This document shows, in pieces, positions 4,249 to 12,926 of a stretch of DNA of 64,000 nt; within the stretch, counting starts at the first letter, position 1; each line of letters starts with the position of its first letter. The DNA is from Pectobacterium peruviense (lineage in GTDB: Bacteria; Pseudomonadota; Gammaproteobacteria; Enterobacterales; Enterobacteriaceae). The translations under genes and the position numbers were made by a program. The stretch is from positions 1-64,000 of the forward strand of contig NZ_LXFV01000010.1 of NCBI RefSeq assembly GCF_002847345.1, read 5' to 3'. The notes under the pieces are model-generated. The model was not told where the DNA came from, did no database searches, and saw only the letters and a list, made by a program, of their open reading frames with translations.

Positions 4249-4638
4249 TTAAAACTGAATAACCCGATCGCAGGTCAGCACCGACTGTGCCAGCTCACCC
4301 AGCCCACTCAGAATAAAACCGGGTTGCAGATTCGCTCCCGCAAGGTTGAGCTGAGTGGCTTGCTGAGCGTCAGTAATGCCTCGACGCAGCGCGGCGGCAA
4401 CGCAAACATTCAGCGCCACCTGATGCACGTCGCCCAGCTGTTGCCAGCCGCGAACAACATCAAACTCATCGTTAGCTGGTGATGTCAGTTGGTTAGCATT
4501 CAGCACGCCTTCTCGGTAGAAGAACACACTTTTCAGTTTATGCCCCTCAGCCAACAGCGCCTGCGCAAACTGCAACGCGCTACTCGCTTGCTGTGTGCCG
4601 TAAGCAGGGCCGGTCACCAGCAAGCAGTAAGTCAGCAT
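4249..4638 (-). CDS. tusD: Sulfurtransferase TusD
   Basis: TusD is the catalytic DsrE-like subunit of TusBCD and accepts persulfide sulfur from TusA. The conserved cysteine is Cys79 in the motif [15 protein letters not shown] chose the ATG at 4636-4638, whose A overlaps the yheO stop (TGATG), rather than a TTG one codon upstream. The 129-residue length is normal. The stop-start overlap suggests translational coupling to yheO. Confidence 0.95.
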
Positions 4639-5360
4639 CAACGTTCGTGCCCGCTGAAGTCGCCGCTTTTGAATTGACGAATATAAAGATAAACAGTGTG
4701 CTTGGAGATATTAAGGCGCTCGGCAACCTGATTGATGGCGTCTTTAATATCAAAGATGCCTTTTTCGTACAGGCTCAGTACGATTTGGCGATTTTTCGCA
4801 TTATTGGAAACATTGCGATCCGCATTGACTTCCTCAATAGAGAATTCCAGCGTTTGTGCAACCAGATCGTCAACGGATGATGCGAAGTTAACAGAAGACG
4901 CGGCGTCATGCGTTTCAGGTGGAATAAAGGTCTGCACAATCTGGGAGAAAGGTACATCCAAATTCATGTTGATACACAACAACCCAATCACGCGCTGATC
5001 GCGATTACGGATCGCAATCGTTACTGACTTCATCAACACGCCGCTTTTTGCGCGGGTAAAATAGGCCTTCGACACGCTGCTATCTTCGCCTGCCATGTCA
5101 TGCAGCATGCGCAATGCAAGATCCGTAATCGGCGAGCCAATCTTCCTGCCAGTATGTTCCCCATTTGCAATGCGCACAGCGGAACATTTAAGATCCTCAA
5201 GCGAGTGCAAGACAATCTCACAATGCTCGCCAATCAACATGGCCAAGCCATCAACCACCGCTTCATACGATTTCAGGATCTCATAGTCCGTTTGACTGAA
5301 CGGCCGTTCATCCAGCAAATCAAGCTCATAAGATTCGCCAGATACAAGCGAATTAGACAT
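4638..5360 (-). CDS. yheO: YheO-family PAS-like/HTH transcriptional regulator
   Basis: This 240-residue protein resembles E. coli YheO almost throughout. It has an N-terminal PAS-like sensor domain (YheO domain, about residues 20-140, with [13 protein letters not shown] and [20 protein letters not shown]) and a C-terminal helix-turn-helix (about 190-235, with [17 protein letters not shown]). The ATG at 5358-5360 gives the length of the E. coli protein; an in-frame ATG eight codons upstream exists at 5384. It heads the yheO-tusDCB unit. Its target genes and ligand are not evident from sequence. An ERIC element begins only 26 bases upstream of the start, so its promoter may lie in or beyond that repeat. 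Confidence 0.92.
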
Positions 5361-5385
5361 GGCAGACACCACCCTCAACGTCATT

Positions 5386-5733: not shown

Positions 5734-7380
5734 ATGAAAAATCTAATACCAATGGGCAGACCACACCTAAACAGCATTACGTTTGTGCTGATATTTTCTG
5801 CCTTTATTACTCTGGTCCAGAACATCGCCTACTACCGTCAAACGCTGCAACTGCTGGATATGGCGGACTGGATCAATATCCCTTTCTTCCTCAGCATGCC
5901 GGTAGTGATTTTCGCCGTGCTGAATATCATTTTCACGCTTCTGGCAGCGCCTTATCTGCGTAAGGCCGTCATTGTTTTCTTCCTGCTGTCCGGCGCTGCA
6001 GTGCAATACTTTATGCTGAACTACGGCATTATCATTGACCGCACCATGATCCAGAATATCGTTGAGACGACGGCCAGCGAGTCCTTTTCGCTTCTTACGC
6101 CGCAGCTGATCGTCTGGGTATTTTTCACTGGCGTCATTCCCGCAGCGGCGGCCATCTGGATAAAAATAAAACCCGCCAAGCCAACAACGCTCTATATTGG
6201 CCTGCGCTTTCTCAGCGTCATTATCTCGTTATTCGCTATTTTATCTGTCGCAGCATTCTTTTATAAAGATTACGCCTCGTTCATGCGTAATAACAAAGAG
6301 TTGGTAAAAGCGATTACGCCCAGCAATATTGTGGCAGCCAGTTTGTCCTACCATAAGCATAGCGCGCTGGCTAATTTGCCTCTGGTGCAAATTGGTCTGG
6401 ATGCCCGCAAAGTGCCGCCGTCATCTCCTACGGCAAAAAAGAATCTGGTTATTCTGGTGGTCGGCGAGACCTCTCGGGCACAAAACTTTTCGCTAGGAGG
6501 CTATGAGAAGGAAACCAATCCGTTGCTGACGAAAGACAATGTGGTTTACTTTGAGAACACGTCATCGTGTGGCACATCAACAGGTGTTTCCGTTCCGTGC
6601 ATGTTTTCCAACATGCCGCGACAAAACTTTGATGGTGGCTTAGCCAGCCATCAGGAAGGGTTGCTCGATATCTTACAACGGGCAAAAGTTAACGTGCTTT
6701 GGCAGGAAAATGACGGTGGCTGCAAAGATGCCTGTACGCGTGTGCCAACAGTTGATGTGACATCGCTGAAACTACCAGTGTTATGCACCCGCGGCGAGTG
6801 CCACGATGAAGCGTTATTCCACGGTGTAGAAGACTATATTAACAAGCTCGATAACGATGGGATTATTGTATTACATACGATAGGCAGCCACGGCCCGAGC
6901 TATTACCAGCGCTATCCTGACGCCTTTAAGAAATTTACCCCAACCTGTGATACCAATCAGATTCAAACCTGTACGCAGGAGGCACTGACCAACACGTATG
7001 ACAATACCATTCTGTATGTCGATTTTATTCTGGATAAAACGATCAACCTACTGAAGCAGCATCAGGATAAATTTAATACCTCACTGGTTTACCTGTCTGA
7101 CCACGGCGAATCGTTAGGCGAGAACGGCATCTACCTGCACAGCATGCCCTACTCTATTGCGCCGAAGCAGCAAACGCATGTGCCGATGTTGATGTGGTTA
7201 TCAGCAGGTTACCAGCAGCAACAGGCGATTCAAGACACCTGCCTGCGCCAGAACGCGAAGCAGCAGGATTACTCGCAAGATAATCTTTTCCATACCATAC
7301 TGGGGATGTTTAGTATCGCCACGAAAGAATATCAGCCTCAGCTCGATATCCTTCAGCCGTGCAGGGATAAGACAACATGA
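5734..7380 (+). CDS. eptA: Lipid A phosphoethanolamine transferase (EptA/PmrC family)
   Basis: This inner-membrane enzyme moves phosphoethanolamine from phosphatidylethanolamine onto lipid A, lowering surface charge and sensitivity to cationic peptides. The 548-residue protein has about five N-terminal membrane segments (residues 15-190) and a periplasmic alkaline-phosphatase-fold domain. Metal and catalytic residues are visible: Glu245 in VVGETSR, the nucleophile Thr283 in CGTST, and Asp456-His457 in LSDHGE. Cysteines at 279 and 289 and the pairs in GCKDAC, LCTRGEC and CDTNQIQTC match the family disulfides. It overlaps pmrA by four bases and has a PmrA box upstream. Which phosphate or sugar it modifies cannot be read from sequence. 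Confidence 0.93.
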
Positions 7381-8045
7381 AATTATTGATTGTTGAAGAC
7401 GATAAGCTGTTGCAGGAAGGATTATTCTTGGCACTGAGTCATGAAGGTTATGCCTGCGATTGCGCAGGCACGGCCAAAGAAGCGGACGCGCTCATCAGCA
7501 GTGCGCACTACAGTTTGGTCATTCTCGATCTTGGCTTACCGGACGATGACGGGCTCGCGTTGTTATCACGCTGGCGTAAAAATAATTACCAGCATCCCGT
7601 ACTTATCTTAACGGCGCGGGATAAGGTCAACGATCGCGTCAGCGGATTGGATGTTGGCGCCGACGATTATCTTGCCAAGCCTTTTGCACTGACAGAATTA
7701 CAAGCGCGCGTACGTGCGCTGATTCGCCGCAATCAGGGATCAAGCAACAGCAAGATACAGGTCGACAACATTACGCTGGATTTAAATAATCAACAGGTGC
7801 TGCTGGACGAAAAACCAGTGGTACTGACGCCAAAAGAGTTCGCGATACTTTCCCGACTAGTGCTGAAAGCCGGTTCTCAGGTACACCGAGAGCTTCTACA
7901 TCAGGATATTTATGCCTGGAACGACGACCCGTCCTCCAATTCGCTAGAAGTCCATATCCACAATCTGCGTCAAAAGATAGGCAAAGACCGTATCCGAACC
8001 CTGCGAGGTTTTGGCTACCTGTTGACCAAAGGGGATCAACCATGA
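7377..8045 (+). CDS. basR: Response regulator PmrA/BasR
   Basis: This is an OmpR-family response regulator of 222 residues, the same length as E. coli BasR. The receiver domain shows acidic residues Asp8-Asp9, the phosphoacceptor Asp51 in VILDLGLP, Thr in LILTARD and Lys in LAKPFA. The C-terminal winged helix (about 128-218) includes [13 protein letters not shown] and [11 protein letters not shown]. Its start overlaps the eptA stop (ATGA) and its stop overlaps the sensor gene the same way. In Pectobacterium the PmrA-PmrB pair is known to matter for plant interaction; here the linkage to eptA supports the lipid A role directly. Confidence 0.93.
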
Positions 8046-9136
8046 AGAGCGATGCCGACGCCGTCACCAGTATGCGTCGCCGTTTGGTGCTGGCACTGGG
8101 CGGCATCCTCCTCGTTTGCCAGATGATCAGCGTATTCTGGCTCTGGCACGAAAGCGAAGAACAGATCGGCCTGCTGGTTGATAAATCCCTGAGCGCCAGT
8201 GCCCAGAACATGCAGATCGATCAAGAGATTAATGAAGCAATCGCGTCGCTCAGTATTCCCAGTCTGGTGATGGTCATCCTGACATTGCTCATGTGCTTTC
8301 AGGCGGTCAGTTGGATCACCCGCCCGCTTTCTCGTCTACAGGAAGAATTGCAGGATCGCACGGCCGAAAATCTGGAACCGCTGCCACAGCAGAGCGACAT
8401 TAAAGAAATCGCCGCGGTCACCCATACCATCAACCAGCTTTTCCAACGCTTAGACGAAACGCTGAAACGCGACAGGCAATTTACTGCCGATGTCGCTCAT
8501 GAGTTACGAACTCCGCTAGCCGGTATTCGGCTACATCTTGAATTACACCAGCAACAGCATCAGATTGACTGCGGTTCACTTATCAAACGGATCGATAAGA
8601 TGGTGAAGACGGTGGAACAGCTCTTACTGCTTGCGCGTGTCGGACAAGAATTTTCGGCAGGCCACCACGAAAATGTCGCATTCCTGAAAGACGTTATTTT
8701 TCCCATGCAGGATGAACTAGCGGAGATGCTGCAAAAGCGCCAGCAAAGGCTGAAATGGGTATTACCGCAGGAAGATGTCTCTCTCCACGGTGATGCCACG
8801 TTACTCCAATTGTTGTTACGCAATCTGGTAGAAAATGCCTATCGCTATAGCCCGGAAGCAAGTCAGATCACGGTTAGCCTGATTAAACGGCAACACCTTG
8901 AACTACAGATCGAAGATGAAGGGCCGGGTATCGATGAAAGTAAGGTTGGTGAATTAAGTAAGGCGTTTGTTCGCATGGATAGTCGCTATGGTGGTATCGG
9001 TCTCGGACTGAGCATCGTGACGCGCATTGCTCAGTTGCACGATGGAAGATTTTTCCTTAGTAACCGACCGCAAGGCTCTGGTGCACTCGCGCAGGTGGTA
9101 CTAACCACGCCTGAGGAATACCCAGACTCAGCCTGA
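8042..9136 (+). CDS. basS: Sensor histidine kinase PmrB/BasS
   Basis: This two-pass membrane kinase has 364 residues. TM1 is about residues 14-33 and TM2 about 68-90, leaving a short periplasmic loop of about 35 residues. The loop contains ESEE, which fits the ExxE iron-binding pattern known from Salmonella PmrB. A HAMP-like linker ([13 protein letters not shown]) precedes the dimerisation/phosphoacceptor helix with His153 in [11 protein letters not shown]. The ATPase domain shows the N box ([12 protein letters not shown]), the G1 box (EDEGPGI) and the G2 box (GGIGLGLSI). It overlaps pmrA by four bases. That it senses iron or mild acid is inferred from the family. Confidence 0.92.
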
Positions 9137-9207: not shown

Positions 9208-10479
9208 TTATTGATACACAGGATAGCGGCGGCACAGCGCGACAACCTGCTCGCGAACACGATCGCGTATCACCGTTAACGCTTCATTCCCAGCACCTAG
9301 CCCATCCAGCACATCACATAACCACCCTGCCAGTTGCTCACACTCTGTCACACCGAAACCGCGCGTCGTCACAGCTGGCGTACCAATACGCAGGCCTGAG
9401 GTAACAAAAGGTGAACGTGGGTCGTTAGGCACCGAATTCTTATTTGTCGTGATGTAAGCATCGCTCAGCGCAGCGTCGGCATCCTTACCGGTATACGGCT
9501 TAGCAGACAGGTCGATCAGCAGCAAATGGTTGTCGGTGCCGTCGGAGACGATCTTGTAACCACGCAGTTGGATAATGCGCGCCATTGCCCGGGCGTTAGT
9601 CACGACCTGACGCTGATAAACCATGAAATCAGGGCGTAACGCTTCCTTGAAGGCTACCGCTTTAGCTGCAATAACGTGCATCAGCGGGCCACCTTGAATA
9701 CCGGGGAACACGGCGGCGTTGAGCTTTTTGTAAAAATCCTCACTCTGCCCCTTGGCCAAAATAATGCCACCTCGTGGGCCACGCAGGGTCTTATGCGTTG
9801 TACTGGTCACAACATGTGCGTGAGGGAGCGGGTTGGGGTATTCACCCGCCGCCACTAAACCAGCAACATGAGCCATATCCACCCAGAAGATAGCCCCCAC
9901 TCTGTCAGCAATAGTGCGCATACGCGCCCAGTCCTTGTGGCGTGAATAAGCGGAAAATCCTCCTATTAACATTTTTGGCCGGGTTTCCAAGGCAATACGC
10001 TCCATTTCGTCGTAGTCGATAAGCCCTGTTTCAGGGTCAAGACCATACGGTACGATCTTGTAGTGGCGACCAGAGAAGTTGGAGGGGTTCCCGTGAGTCA
10101 AATGCCCGCCCTGAGCCAGATTCATACCCATCACGGTGTCACCGGGGTTAGTCAAGGCCAGAAATACGGCGGCATTCGCCTGAGCGCCAGCATGGGGCTG
10201 GACGTTAGCGTAATCGCAGTCAAACAGCACTTTGGCCCGCTCGATAGCCAGACGTTCGGCTACGTCAACATACTCACAGCCGCTGTAGTAGCGCTTGCCG
10301 GGGTAACCCTCTGCGTATTTGTTGGTGAACACGGAATTCTGGACCGCCATCACCAGCGGACTGGCATAGTTCTCTGAAGCGATGAGTTCAACGTGGATTT
10401 CCTGACGGTGTTCTTCGTGCAAGATGGCATCGGCCAACTCAGGGTCGAAATCGGTAAGAGTTAAAGAGGTGTCATACAT
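9208..10479 (-). CDS. Serine hydroxymethyltransferase paralogue (GlyA-like)
   Basis: SHMT is a PLP enzyme that interconverts serine and glycine with tetrahydrofolate, or cleaves related beta-hydroxy amino acids. The 423-residue product keeps the fold-type I active site. The PLP lysine is in [14 protein letters not shown] (Lys230), with [29 protein letters not shown] and the substrate-carboxylate arginine in [10 protein letters not shown] prefer the ATG at 10477-10479 because AGGA lies eight bases upstream; two in-frame ATGs at 10485 and 10488 are closer to that site. The upstream yggS-like stop is ten bases away, so the two are coupled. The housekeeping glyA of enterobacteria lies elsewhere, so this is probably a second copy with a specialised substrate or induction condition. 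The paralogue status is inferred. Confidence 0.85.
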
Positions 10480-10489
10480 GGGCATCATC

Positions 10490-11326
10490 CTATGCGTTAA
10501 TCGTTGGTTTTTTTAAAGGGGATACTTCGGTGGTGGTTTCATCAGGCCAGTAGTAGCTATCCGGCAAAGGGCGTGCACCGAAGATCGCCTGACCGACGCG
10601 CACTACGGTGGCACCTTCCTCGATCGCGATCTCAAAATCGCCGGACATCCCCATGGATAATTCATCCAGTCCGATGCCAGCAGGCGCGTTTTGCTGCAAC
10701 CGATCGCGTAGGTTACGCAGCCGAATAAAACACTGACGTACGCGTTCGGCCTCGCTGGAGAACAACGCCAGCGTCATGAGCCCACGCACACGTAGCGCAG
10801 AGAATGTGGGAAGCGCCTGAATAAAAGCAGGAACGTCTTCAGGAGACAGGCCGTACTTACTCGCCTCACCAGAGGTGTTAACCTGCACGAAGACATCCAG
10901 TGAGCGTCCTTCAACGTGCAAGCGACGATCCAACGCTTCAGCCAGTCTCAGGCTATCCAATGCCTGAAATTCGCTAGCGAAGCGTGCCACCAGCTTAGCC
11001 TTGTTGGTTTGTAGATGGCCAATGACCGACCACTGTAAGTCGGCTAAGTCCTGCATGGCTTCCCATTTGCGGTACGCCTCCTGCACCTTGTTCTCACCCA
11101 ATATCCGGCAGCCTGCTATATGGGCCATACGCAGGCGATTTTCTGGCTTGGTCTTGCTGACTGGCAGCAAGCGCACGGTTGCTGGATCGCGGCCAACGCG
11201 GTGACAAGCCGCCTCGATGCGCATCTGTACTGCCGCCAGATTACGTTGAAAATCCTCAACCGTGGCGGTTTCAGGGTAGCGACCGTGACTATCGTGGCGA
11301 GTGGGTGTATCGGAAGATATCGGCAT
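10490..11326 (-). CDS. YggS/PLPBP-family pyridoxal phosphate-binding protein
   Basis: The product is an alanine racemase N-domain TIM-barrel protein of the PLP homeostasis (YggS/PROSC) family. The PLP lysine is Lys58 in LLPVSKTKP. Other family motifs are [41 protein letters not shown] and [12 protein letters not shown], and the phosphate-binding [12 protein letters not shown]. At 278 residues it is longer than YggS (about 234), with an extra N-terminal stretch of about 25 residues and a C-terminal tail. It is the first gene of a two-gene unit with the SHMT paralogue and divergent from a PLP-dependent MocR regulator. It probably supplies or buffers PLP for that module; an enzymatic role is not expected from the family. 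Confidence 0.87.
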
Positions 11327-11429
11327 CGGCCTAACTCCTGATAAAGAGGATGAATGGATTGTGAAACGTATTTATAGATTTAAAATAGCCGGATGTTCCC
11401 CACCATTTTTCTTATAAGAGGCAGACCAA
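11327..11429. promoter_or_regulatory. Divergent promoter region between the yggS-like gene and the mocR-type gene
   Basis: This 103-base AT-rich gap must contain both divergent promoters. MocR-type regulators usually bind direct or inverted repeats next to their own gene; I could not pick out a clear operator or canonical -35/-10 pair by eye. The assignment rests only on gene arrangement. Confidence 0.4.
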
Positions 11430-12926
11430 TTGTTCAAACACGCCCAGCTCGAATCTGTCAAAGCCTGGATTGGCGATCCCGCGCACGGCGCTTTGCCACT
11501 GCATGCTCGTATCCAGCGGGCGATTCGTCAGCTCATCCTCGATGGCATTCTCGATGTGGGAAAACCCTTACCCGCTTCGCGCGCGCTGGCTACATCGCTG
11601 GAGGTATCGCGTGATACGGTCGAATCGGCTTACAGCCAGCTGCATGCAGAAGGGTTCATTGAGCGTCGCGTAGGCAGCGGCAGTTTCGTGTCAGAGCGGG
11701 CAAAACGTCTTTCAGGACGTGGTAAAGCCAGAAAAACAGGAGATAGCAAAGCAGAGCTGCGTCTCAGTCAACGCGGCAGCGCCATGTTCCAGAATGGCGG
11801 TGTACGAGATTTCATCATACCGCGAGCGTTCGCGCCCGGCGTGCCGGAAACACGCAGCTTTCCCCTCCAGACGTGGGAACGACTAGAGCGGCAGGTGCTA
11901 AAAGAATATGGCACTAAAGCGCTGTTACACAGCCCGCCGCAGGGTATGGAAACGTTGAGACGAGCCATCGCAGATTATGTCAACCTCGAACGAGGAGCCC
12001 GCGCTACGCCAGACCGCGTGTTAGTGTTGACCAGTTCCCAGCAAGCACTCACTCTGTGCGCGAATGTGCTGATGGATGCTGGCGATAGGATCTTCCTTGA
12101 AGATCCTGTGTACCACGGCGCACGCAAGGCATTCGAGGCCGCCGGGCTCGCGTGCGTGCCTATACCGTTAGATGCGGATGGTTTGCAGGTCGATCACCTG
12201 CTTGAAGCAAGCAGCGGACACAATGCGCCCGCTAAAGCCGTATTCCTCACGCCCTCACACCAGTTTCCAACCGGCGCGACGCTGGCGTTGGATCGGCGGC
12301 TGGCAGTGATCGAATGGGCTAGGCAGCACCAAAGCTGGATTATTGAAGACGACTACGACAGCGAGTTTCACTACGCGGGCAAACCCACCGCCTGCGTACA
12401 GGGACTCGACCCGCACGATCGCACGATCTATATCGGCACCTTCACCAAATCGCTGTTTCCCGGCCTGCGCATCGGCTACATGGTACTGCCGCCGCAGTTG
12501 GTCGCACCGATGACCGTGGGCCGTACCTTGATGGATGGGCACAGCGCACCAATTCCGCAGCTCACGCTGGCACGCTTTATCGAAGGCGGCCACTTCGGTG
12601 CCCATGTACGCACGATGCGCACCATTTACGCGAAACGCCGCGATGTGCTGGCACAACTGGTTCGCCAGCATCTGGCTGATTTCGTAGAGCCACGGGTGCC
12701 GACTGGAGGCATGCAGATGCCCTGTATCTTCATCCGCGACATCCCTGAACACGATGCGGTGGAATCCGCACGCCGGGCCGGTATCGATCTACTCGGGCTA
12801 ACAGCGCTGTATGCATCGGGCCAGCATAAAGCAGGTTTCCTCATGGGATTTGCTGCCCACGCTCCGCATGAACTGGAAATTGCCGTCAAGACGTTGGCGA
12901 AGGTGCTAAGTGCGCTGTGCCGCTAA
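11430..12926 (+). CDS. MocR/GabR-type PLP-dependent transcriptional regulator
   Basis: The 498-residue protein has an N-terminal GntR-like winged helix (about residues 20-85: ARIQRAIRQLILDG, LPASRALATSLEVSRDTVESAY) and a C-terminal fold-type I aminotransferase domain. The PLP lysine is Lys340 in GTFTKSLFPGLRIGY. Other motifs are LTSSQQAL, EDPVYHGAR, TPSHQFPTGA and IEDDYDSEFHY. Such proteins sense PLP or a PLP adduct of an amino compound and regulate adjacent genes. The start is a TTG with AGAGG about eight bases upstream. It is divergent from the yggS-like and SHMT genes, the likely targets. The ligand is unknown; PdxR-like PLP control or serine, glycine or a related amino acid are the obvious options. 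Confidence 0.9.
   Translation: MFKHAQLESVKAWIGDPAHGALPLHARIQRAIRQLILDGILDVGKPLPASRALATSLEVSRDTVESAYSQLHAEGFIERRVGSGSFVSERAKRLSGRGKARKTGDSKAELRLSQRGSAMFQNGGVRDFIIPRAFAPGVPETRSFPLQTWERLERQVLKEYGTKALLHSPPQGMETLRRAIADYVNLERGARATPDRVLVLTSSQQALTLCANVLMDAGDRIFLEDPVYHGARKAFEAAGLACVPIPLDADGLQVDHLLEASSGHNAPAKAVFLTPSHQFPTGATLALDRRLAVIEWARQHQSWIIEDDYDSEFHYAGKPTACVQGLDPHDRTIYIGTFTKSLFPGLRIGYMVLPPQLVAPMTVGRTLMDGHSAPIPQLTLARFIEGGHFGAHVRTMRTIYAKRRDVLAQLVRQHLADFVEPRVPTGGMQMPCIFIRDIPEHDAVESARRAGIDLLGLTALYASGQHKAGFLMGFAAHAPHELEIAVKTLAKVLSALCR

Follow-up and report, generated by a model that had tools for sequence, protein, structure and literature searches.

Locus and gene products

The window, a 64,000-nucleotide stretch of contig NZ_LXFV01000010.1 of Pectobacterium peruviense, contains between a pmrB-like gene and fkpA a trio of genes connected with pyridoxal phosphate (PLP): a gene for a MocR regulator and, divergent from it, a YggS-family gene followed by a gene for serine hydroxymethyltransferase (SHMT). 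The latter two are second copies in this genome and are designated yggS2 and glyA2.

9208..10479 (likely start; first ATG at 10488), minus strand: SHMT, second copy (GlyA2); open frame, PF00464 and PRK00011 over cut-off
10490..11326, minus strand: YggS-family PLP-binding protein, second copy (YggS2); open frame, TIGR00044, Lys58 in VSKTKP
11430..12926, plus strand: PdxR-type MocR regulator; GntR winged helix and aminotransferase domain, TTG start, Lys340

The open frames confirm the three genes, their order and their strands as given in an earlier reading made from the letters alone (the sequence-only reading), which had also placed Lys340 of the regulator and Lys58 of the YggS-like protein correctly. 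Its Lys230 of the SHMT stands when counted from the ATG at 10479; counted from the first ATG, at 10488, the residue is number 233. The start at 10479, the third in-frame ATG, is favoured because the best plasmid matches begin at residue 4 of the longer reading, and with this start the gap of ten bases described between the YggS and SHMT genes holds. All three proteins have solved relatives among the structure-database matches.

GlyA2 scored 622 bits with the SHMT profile PRK00011 (cut-off 335). The same genome has another SHMT (C11; 597 bits vs 553 for the window copy). In a tree of 49 SHMT rows the window copy and 21 others group in a clade supported at 100/100, on a stem of 0.5 changes per site, and the 27 other SHMTs, the host's own included, stand outside it. 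The members of the clade are from beta- and gammaproteobacteria and lie near YggS genes. The tree input consisted in part of 30 loci taken from 50 SHMT matches in 17 genomes, of which six repeating module genes were dropped and 24 entered. Rows with at least 80% identity to the window protein were called module SHMTs, and the 21 such rows other than the window all came from loci recruited by YggS; because the label was set by identity to the window protein, the tree tests separateness and not context. The second SHMT in the genome and the separate, fully supported clade lead to rejection of a plain housekeeping glyA, and bear out the earlier view, for which a tree had been proposed as the check, that this SHMT is a paralogue.

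In the alignment GlyA2 keeps Glu60, Tyr68, His129, Asp204, His207, Lys233 and Arg367, residues to which we attribute catalytic or PLP-related roles. Profile and residues together identify GlyA2 as a predicted serine hydroxymethyltransferase. The residues compared match ordinary SHMTs, and the special aldolase that had been offered as an alternative is not indicated. A serine to alanine substitution at position 102 is found in 22/22 module SHMTs, and also in 2/27 other SHMTs.

Two diverged SHMT genes form their own deep branch outside the GlyA2 clade. One, in Delftia (L044:1555-2961, plus strand; 52%), adjoins a MocR gene and has the PLP lysine intact. The other, in Pseudomonas sp. GM48 (L074:390-1691, plus strand; 51% to the window SHMT), lies beside a MocR gene and has alanine in place of the PLP lysine, with the other SHMT residues checked kept; from this pattern it is possibly a non-catalytic homologue.

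YggS2 scored 196 bits with TIGR00044 (cut-off 106) and aligns to solved YggS/PipY structures. Another YggS is present in the same genome (C25; 318 bits vs 197 for the window copy), as is a BenE-family gene (C13), which lies away from the trio.

Regulator class and signal

The regulator contains a PF00392 domain (58.7 bits, residues 26-87) and a PF00155 domain (87.5 bits, residues 162-414). It exceeded the cut-off of the PdxR model NF052282 (410 bits, cut-off 320) and fell under those of the rhizopine MocR model NF052281 (430.5 bits, cut-off 650) and the GabR model (271 bits, cut-off 600); the PtsJ model gave 85 bits (cut-off 573). The best solved-structure match is 7pq9, which we take to be PdxR.

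The PLP residues Tyr228, Asp307, Tyr309, Lys340 and Arg347 are all kept. Lys340, Arg347 and Tyr309 are invariant in 52/52 aligned homologues, many of them close Pectobacterium copies, and Tyr228 and Asp307 in 6/6 aligned rows. In GabR, Arg207 and Arg430 interact with the carboxylate of the effector (table in PMC6917764). These two align to Gly230 and Ala459 in the window regulator and are also replaced by residues other than arginine in 7pq9. Position 459 is alanine in 30 of the 52 rows, many of them from Pectobacterium, and arginine in 11, all belonging to a group with 49-53% identity; Gly230 is kept in the two homologues of that group with Arg459 that were aligned at that site. Because this protein retains the residues that hold PLP and has neither of the GabR carboxylate arginines, PLP itself appears a likelier signal for this regulator than an amino compound. 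Sensing of an amino compound through a PLP aldimine, as first suggested, is less supported, and an amino-acid-sensing MocR was rejected as the principal reading on the missing GabR arginines.

Predicted operator region

A predicted operator lies in the region between the divergent genes and extends to the MocR start.

11370..11437, no strand assigned: predicted MocR operator and operon promoter region; two direct boxes, one inverted box and a TATAAA-type -10, from an alignment of 16 loci
11424..11430, minus strand: direct box 1, ATTGGTC, touching the first base of the MocR start codon
11403..11407, minus strand: direct box 2, AATGG, 23 bases from box 1, about two helical turns
11384..11388, minus strand: inverted box, CTATT (CCATT in 14/16 loci)
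11370..11377, minus strand: possible -10 element CTATAAAT of the yggS2-glyA2 operon, exact in 7/16 loci

The alignment comprises 16 of 60 extracted regions, from alpha-, beta- and gammaproteobacteria with MocR proteins 70-100% identical; it is free of repeats and of Pectobacterium loci other than the window, and L046 and pKAZ5 are identical in this stretch. The conserved block upstream of MocR consists of CAATTGGTC, AATGG 23 bases on, CCATT (changed in the window as listed) and CTATAAAT. Box 1 is AATTGGT, AATTGGC or AAATGGT in 15/16 loci, and box 2 is AATGG in eight, AGTGG in three, ATTGG in three and another sequence in two. The mean frequency of the commonest base is 0.76 in the operator region vs 0.47 in the next 35 columns toward yggS. 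The -10 element is a possible one, which a sigma-70 scan did not report. The MocR start codon is TTG in 15/16 loci and overlaps the edge of box 1, an overlap that suggests self-repression of MocR. Two direct boxes and one inverted box make up the commonest class of MocR motif (PMC5320631), and the predicted site has the PdxR-type layout in a divergent intergenic region.

A search of 25 Pectobacterium genomes with the operator pattern gave matches in 24, with 0 to 3 per genome besides the module site. Several of the extra matches recur at different spacing, and a reversed control pattern gave 5 matches over the 25 genomes. At one locus (L177, genome G155) the operator pattern persists though the regulator and YggS genes are fragments.

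Distribution and selection in Pectobacterium

The regulator was found in 20 of the 25 genus genomes (E up to 1e-150), and the regulator together with YggS and SHMT in 17, the window's own included; in 15 genus members (L113-L122, L125, L127-L130) the flank covered shows the SHMT in part. The closest named relatives among the matches listed are Pectobacterium polonicum and P. carotovorum. The other eight genomes comprise one with regulator and YggS, two with regulator and a short YggS remnant, all three having no SHMT at the site, two with remnants alone and three with no trace beside fkpA. Reading-frame breaks affect the trio in G168, the remaining genome of the 17 apart from the window's own, where an assembly problem is likely because they also hit the adjoining eptA-, pmrA- and pmrB-like genes.

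The block has a G+C content of 54-58%, vs about 48-53% on both sides. G+C-rich and patchy in the genus, it looks horizontally acquired; a single gain at this site, with several subsequent losses, is its probable history in the genus. A dN/dS of 0.05-0.08 for all three genes, from comparison of the window with two species, indicates purifying selection where the block is intact.

The wider module

The wider survey covered the best 80 loci among the genome-contig matches listed for the YggS protein, recruited by YggS similarity alone. An SHMT at least 83% identical to GlyA2 lies downstream on the YggS strand in 21 of them, against about 0.2 expected by our own arithmetic, in which one such gene is placed randomly per 5-Mb genome and a 12-kb stretch is considered. 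All 21 have a divergent MocR-type regulator, of the window's type in 18 and PtsJ-like in three; this second type matches the PtsJ-like protein of L060 at 56-63%. This neighbourhood check shows conservation of the trio in relatives far beyond chance, and, with an SHMT that is not the housekeeping GlyA, supports the description of the locus in the sequence-only reading as a self-contained PLP module.

A MocR 49-95% identical to that of the window is upstream and divergent in 24 of the 80 loci (L054, a 28% match, was dropped). These 24 include 18 with BenE, 18 with a GlyA2-type SHMT and 23 with one or the other. Among the 80 loci ArgD occurs in 14 and pyridoxal kinase (PdxK) in 16, always on the YggS strand, and SerC-like genes on the YggS strand in six and on the opposite strand in two. 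Neither regulator type was seen in the stretch covered at 37 of the 80 loci, which speaks against a tight tie between YggS and the regulator; YggS of this family is therefore not confined to the module.

The longest forms are as follows. In pKAZ5 the MocR gene faces the series BenE-YggS-GATase (amidotransferase)-PdxK-ArgD-TrpB-TrpA-GlyA-LysR; pBYT5-1 has the same order plus a GNAT gene after YggS, and L046 the same order as far as GlyA, inside which the stretch ends. Both pBYT5-1 and pKAZ5 are conjugative-typed and have a major facilitator superfamily (MFS) transporter gene directly downstream of MocR on the same strand. The long form occurs in 3 of 72,556 plasmid records, and these three were the top matches both by protein and by DNA; the third record has the sequence of pBYT5-1 throughout the query (100% identity), and the pKAZ5 match has 77% coverage at 79.5%. 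Among E. coli genome records there was no megablast match to the window trio or to the plasmid module.

Eight genomes with a module ArgD were examined, and each contains one or more further ArgD-like genes (40-59% identity). The module TrpB, ArgD and SerC align as normal family members. The idea that the spare enzymes had all lost the phosphate cup for PLP was considered and dropped, both on these alignments and on the presence of Ala102 in SHMTs outside the module.

Some further arrangements were seen. Beside the module of pKAZ5 (L166:14134-24784) are a second MocR gene, SerC, a short HisC and transport genes. In Acidovorax facilis (L036:9690-10544) TrpA lies between ArgD and GlyA with no TrpB match beside it. 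In four alphaproteobacterial plasmids (L163, L168, L169 and L170) the module core consists of MocR facing BenE; YggS is on the MocR side in that of Gemmobacter alone, and an amidotransferase match follows MocR in that of Azospirillum. MocR-BenE may be the oldest part of the module.

Proposed role

With moderate confidence the trio is read as a shortened, horizontally acquired PdxR-type regulon for PLP stress that acts as a backup for serine-glycine-one-carbon flux. The sign of the regulation, its signal, the hand-over of PLP and the physiological role are proposed by analogy with the literature on PdxR, YggS and GlyA. MocR would gauge free PLP. At low PLP, or when analogues such as pyridoxine 5'-phosphate (PNP) take its place, the apo-regulator would activate yggS2-glyA2 from the shared operator and repress its own gene, and PLP would turn the operon off. 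YggS2 would buffer or deliver PLP, with GlyA2 as its client, and GlyA2 would be a spare SHMT that keeps the serine-glycine-one-carbon pathway going at times when PLP shortage or inhibition affects housekeeping GlyA and glycine cleavage.

This reading is preferred because the regulator exceeds the PdxR cut-off, lacks the GabR arginines, keeps the PLP residues and has an operator of the commonest MocR class, conserved from alpha- to gammaproteobacteria; because YggS and GlyA2 are kept together under two MocR types (18 and three loci); because longer versions carry pyridoxal kinase, the BenE permease and other PLP enzymes; and because of the low dN/dS of the three genes together with the link between YggS and SHMT in E. 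coli. YggS2 and GlyA2 under one regulator, with SerC added in some relatives, would fit a backup of the serine-glycine-one-carbon pathway under PLP stress. Synthetic lethality of serA and yggS is reportedly the subject, by its title, of Ito et al. 2020. The holo form of E. coli YggS binds apo-SHMT with a dissociation constant of 4.8 uM, and strains mutated in both yggS and glyA are inviable on LB (PMC9601805). GlyA is inhibited by PNP and by 4'-deoxypyridoxine phosphate, and mutation of yggS raises sensitivity to 4'-deoxypyridoxine, far more on minimal plates containing pyridoxine (PMC10202323).

Several observations weigh against a PLP-stress regulon. The module at this locus has no kinase or transporter gene, the BenE-family gene being elsewhere in the genome, and PLP supply itself would therefore not be raised. 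Of the 20 Pectobacterium genomes containing the regulator, three have no SHMT at this position, so that the YggS2-GlyA2 pair is separable. The trio evolves faster than housekeeping glyA (dN/dS as above vs 0.008) and is thus less constrained. GlyA2 shows no obvious change predicting better PLP retention, Ala102 being shared with two SHMTs outside the clade. With Arg459 in 49-53% relatives, the signal might be a different one for related regulators of this operon type.

Alternative explanations

The long operons bring up another role, which we regard as doubtful: that of a mobile set of MocR-controlled, antagonist-tolerant spare PLP enzymes (GlyA, ArgD, TrpB with TrpA, SerC, perhaps HisC) with a carrier, a kinase and a permease, which would be switched on under poisoning of vitamin B6 metabolism and protect cells from B6 antagonists or inhibitors of PLP enzymes, whether natural or man-made, and of which the window would hold the minimal form, carrier and SHMT alone. 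Such a spare-enzyme system for the B6 cofactor can be likened to the known zinc-sparing paralogue response. The conjugative-typed pBYT5-1 and pKAZ5, with the MFS gene downstream of MocR, and the third record agree with it, as do the separate clade of the SHMT and the other ArgD-like genes in 8/8 genomes, which make both enzymes extra copies, and the retention of TrpB with its non-PLP partner TrpA, as needed for a working enzyme. Known targets overlap as well, GlyA being inhibited by PNP and 4'-deoxypyridoxine phosphate (PMC10202323) and attacked by 2-aminoacrylate (PMC12172467). However, no resistance phenotype is known, among the plasmid records the long form was seen in just three, two of them identical over the query, the TrpB, ArgD and SerC of the module appear ordinary for their families, the Acidovorax facilis locus keeps TrpA without a TrpB match, and most of the loci seen come from genome contigs with no demonstrated mobility.

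According to PMC8067088, whose passages on these compounds make no mention of this module, oxyvinylglycines act as inhibitors of PLP enzymes, and certain strains of Erwinia amylovora show sensitivity to one such compound; vinylglycine-type inhibitors from pseudomonads as the natural poison would be a guess. A literature search that covered few subscription papers found no description of a role of this module in tolerance of vitamin B6 antagonists. Should the longer module confer such tolerance, it would represent a mobile stress system, disseminated by conjugative-typed plasmids and reduced in soft-rot bacteria to the carrier and the SHMT; the larger mobile module may sustain amino-acid synthesis during shortage or poisoning of vitamin B6.

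Improbable, in our judgement, is a module for catabolism of an amino compound, in which the regulator would form an external aldimine with a specific amino acid and induce a dedicated SHMT or aldolase consuming it. SHMTs can split beta-hydroxy amino acids, MocR proteins such as GabR act by an amino-acid aldimine, and the 49-53% relatives mostly have arginine at the position of GabR Arg430; BenE and GlyA families are also found in MocR regulons of unknown function (PMC5320631). Yet both effector-carboxylate arginines are absent from the window regulator, the GlyA2 residues compared are those of ordinary SHMTs, and what can be named around the pair in the longer modules is a pyridoxal kinase and PLP enzymes of biosynthesis, not of catabolism.

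That an ordinary second glyA and yggS merely hitch-hike beside a MocR gene with no joint function is very improbable: extra copies of housekeeping genes are common and three Pectobacterium genomes have the regulator and no SHMT at this position, but the same-strand YggS-GlyA2 pair with a divergent MocR-type regulator at all 21 loci, the conserved operator and the purifying selection speak against it.

Relation to known systems

The trio had been thought undescribed as a system. This does not hold: Suvorova and Rodionov 2016 (PMC5320631) predict PdxR regulons with a GlyA-family SHMT, COG325 (the YggS family), ArgD, BenE, PdxK and a GuaA-type amidotransferase, with a link between BenE and GlyA, and PMC9601805 notes that yggS and glyA are linked by physical clustering. 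From its gene families and predicted operator, the trio belongs to the kind of predicted PdxR regulon that they described, which it resembles in the MocR regulator, the divergent order, the PLP-related targets and the direct and inverted boxes; in contrast, no spare-enzyme role appears in the parts of PMC5320631 that deal with these regulons. A term search of its main text found neither Pectobacterium, Erwinia nor tryptophan synthase, and the supplementary tables may list this orthologous group. The present analysis adds that the SHMT clade is separate, that ArgD is a spare copy and that the long operon occurs on conjugative-typed plasmids, and it describes the predicted operator and the way the block decays in the genus.

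PdxR of Bacillus clausii and relatives is similar in its mixed direct and inverted repeats; there the apo form activates the divergent operon and represses itself, and PLP is an anti-activator (PMC5320631). That group controls PLP synthesis (pdxST), whereas the targets in the window are a PLP carrier and a PLP enzyme. PtsJ-pdxK of Salmonella likewise has a MocR-type PLP-binding regulator tied to vitamin B6 (PMC12172467), and PtsJ-like regulators adjoin YggS-GlyA2 in three loci, but Salmonella PtsJ represses pdxK (PMC12172467) and the window regulator scores far below the PtsJ cut-off. E. coli has the physical and genetic link of PLP carrier and SHMT (PMC9601805, PMC10202323), there between housekeeping genes, whereas the window pair consists of second copies beside one regulator. 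The delivery of PLP to client enzymes and the function of YggS are open questions in the field, for which one YggS, one SHMT and one regulator, apart from the housekeeping copies, offer a clean system in which to test carrier-to-client delivery.

Neighbouring genes

The trio was said to interrupt the fkpA-yheO adjacency, which is right and incomplete: yheO (4638-5384) is parted from fkpA by eptA-, pmrA- and pmrB-like genes as well as by the trio. In genus member G162 fkpA is close to yheO, with neither the eptA-pmrA-pmrB-like set nor the trio at the site. In the window this set, whose genes we presume from their proteins to be eptA-, pmrA- and pmrB-like, occupies 5734-9136 and directly adjoins the trio.

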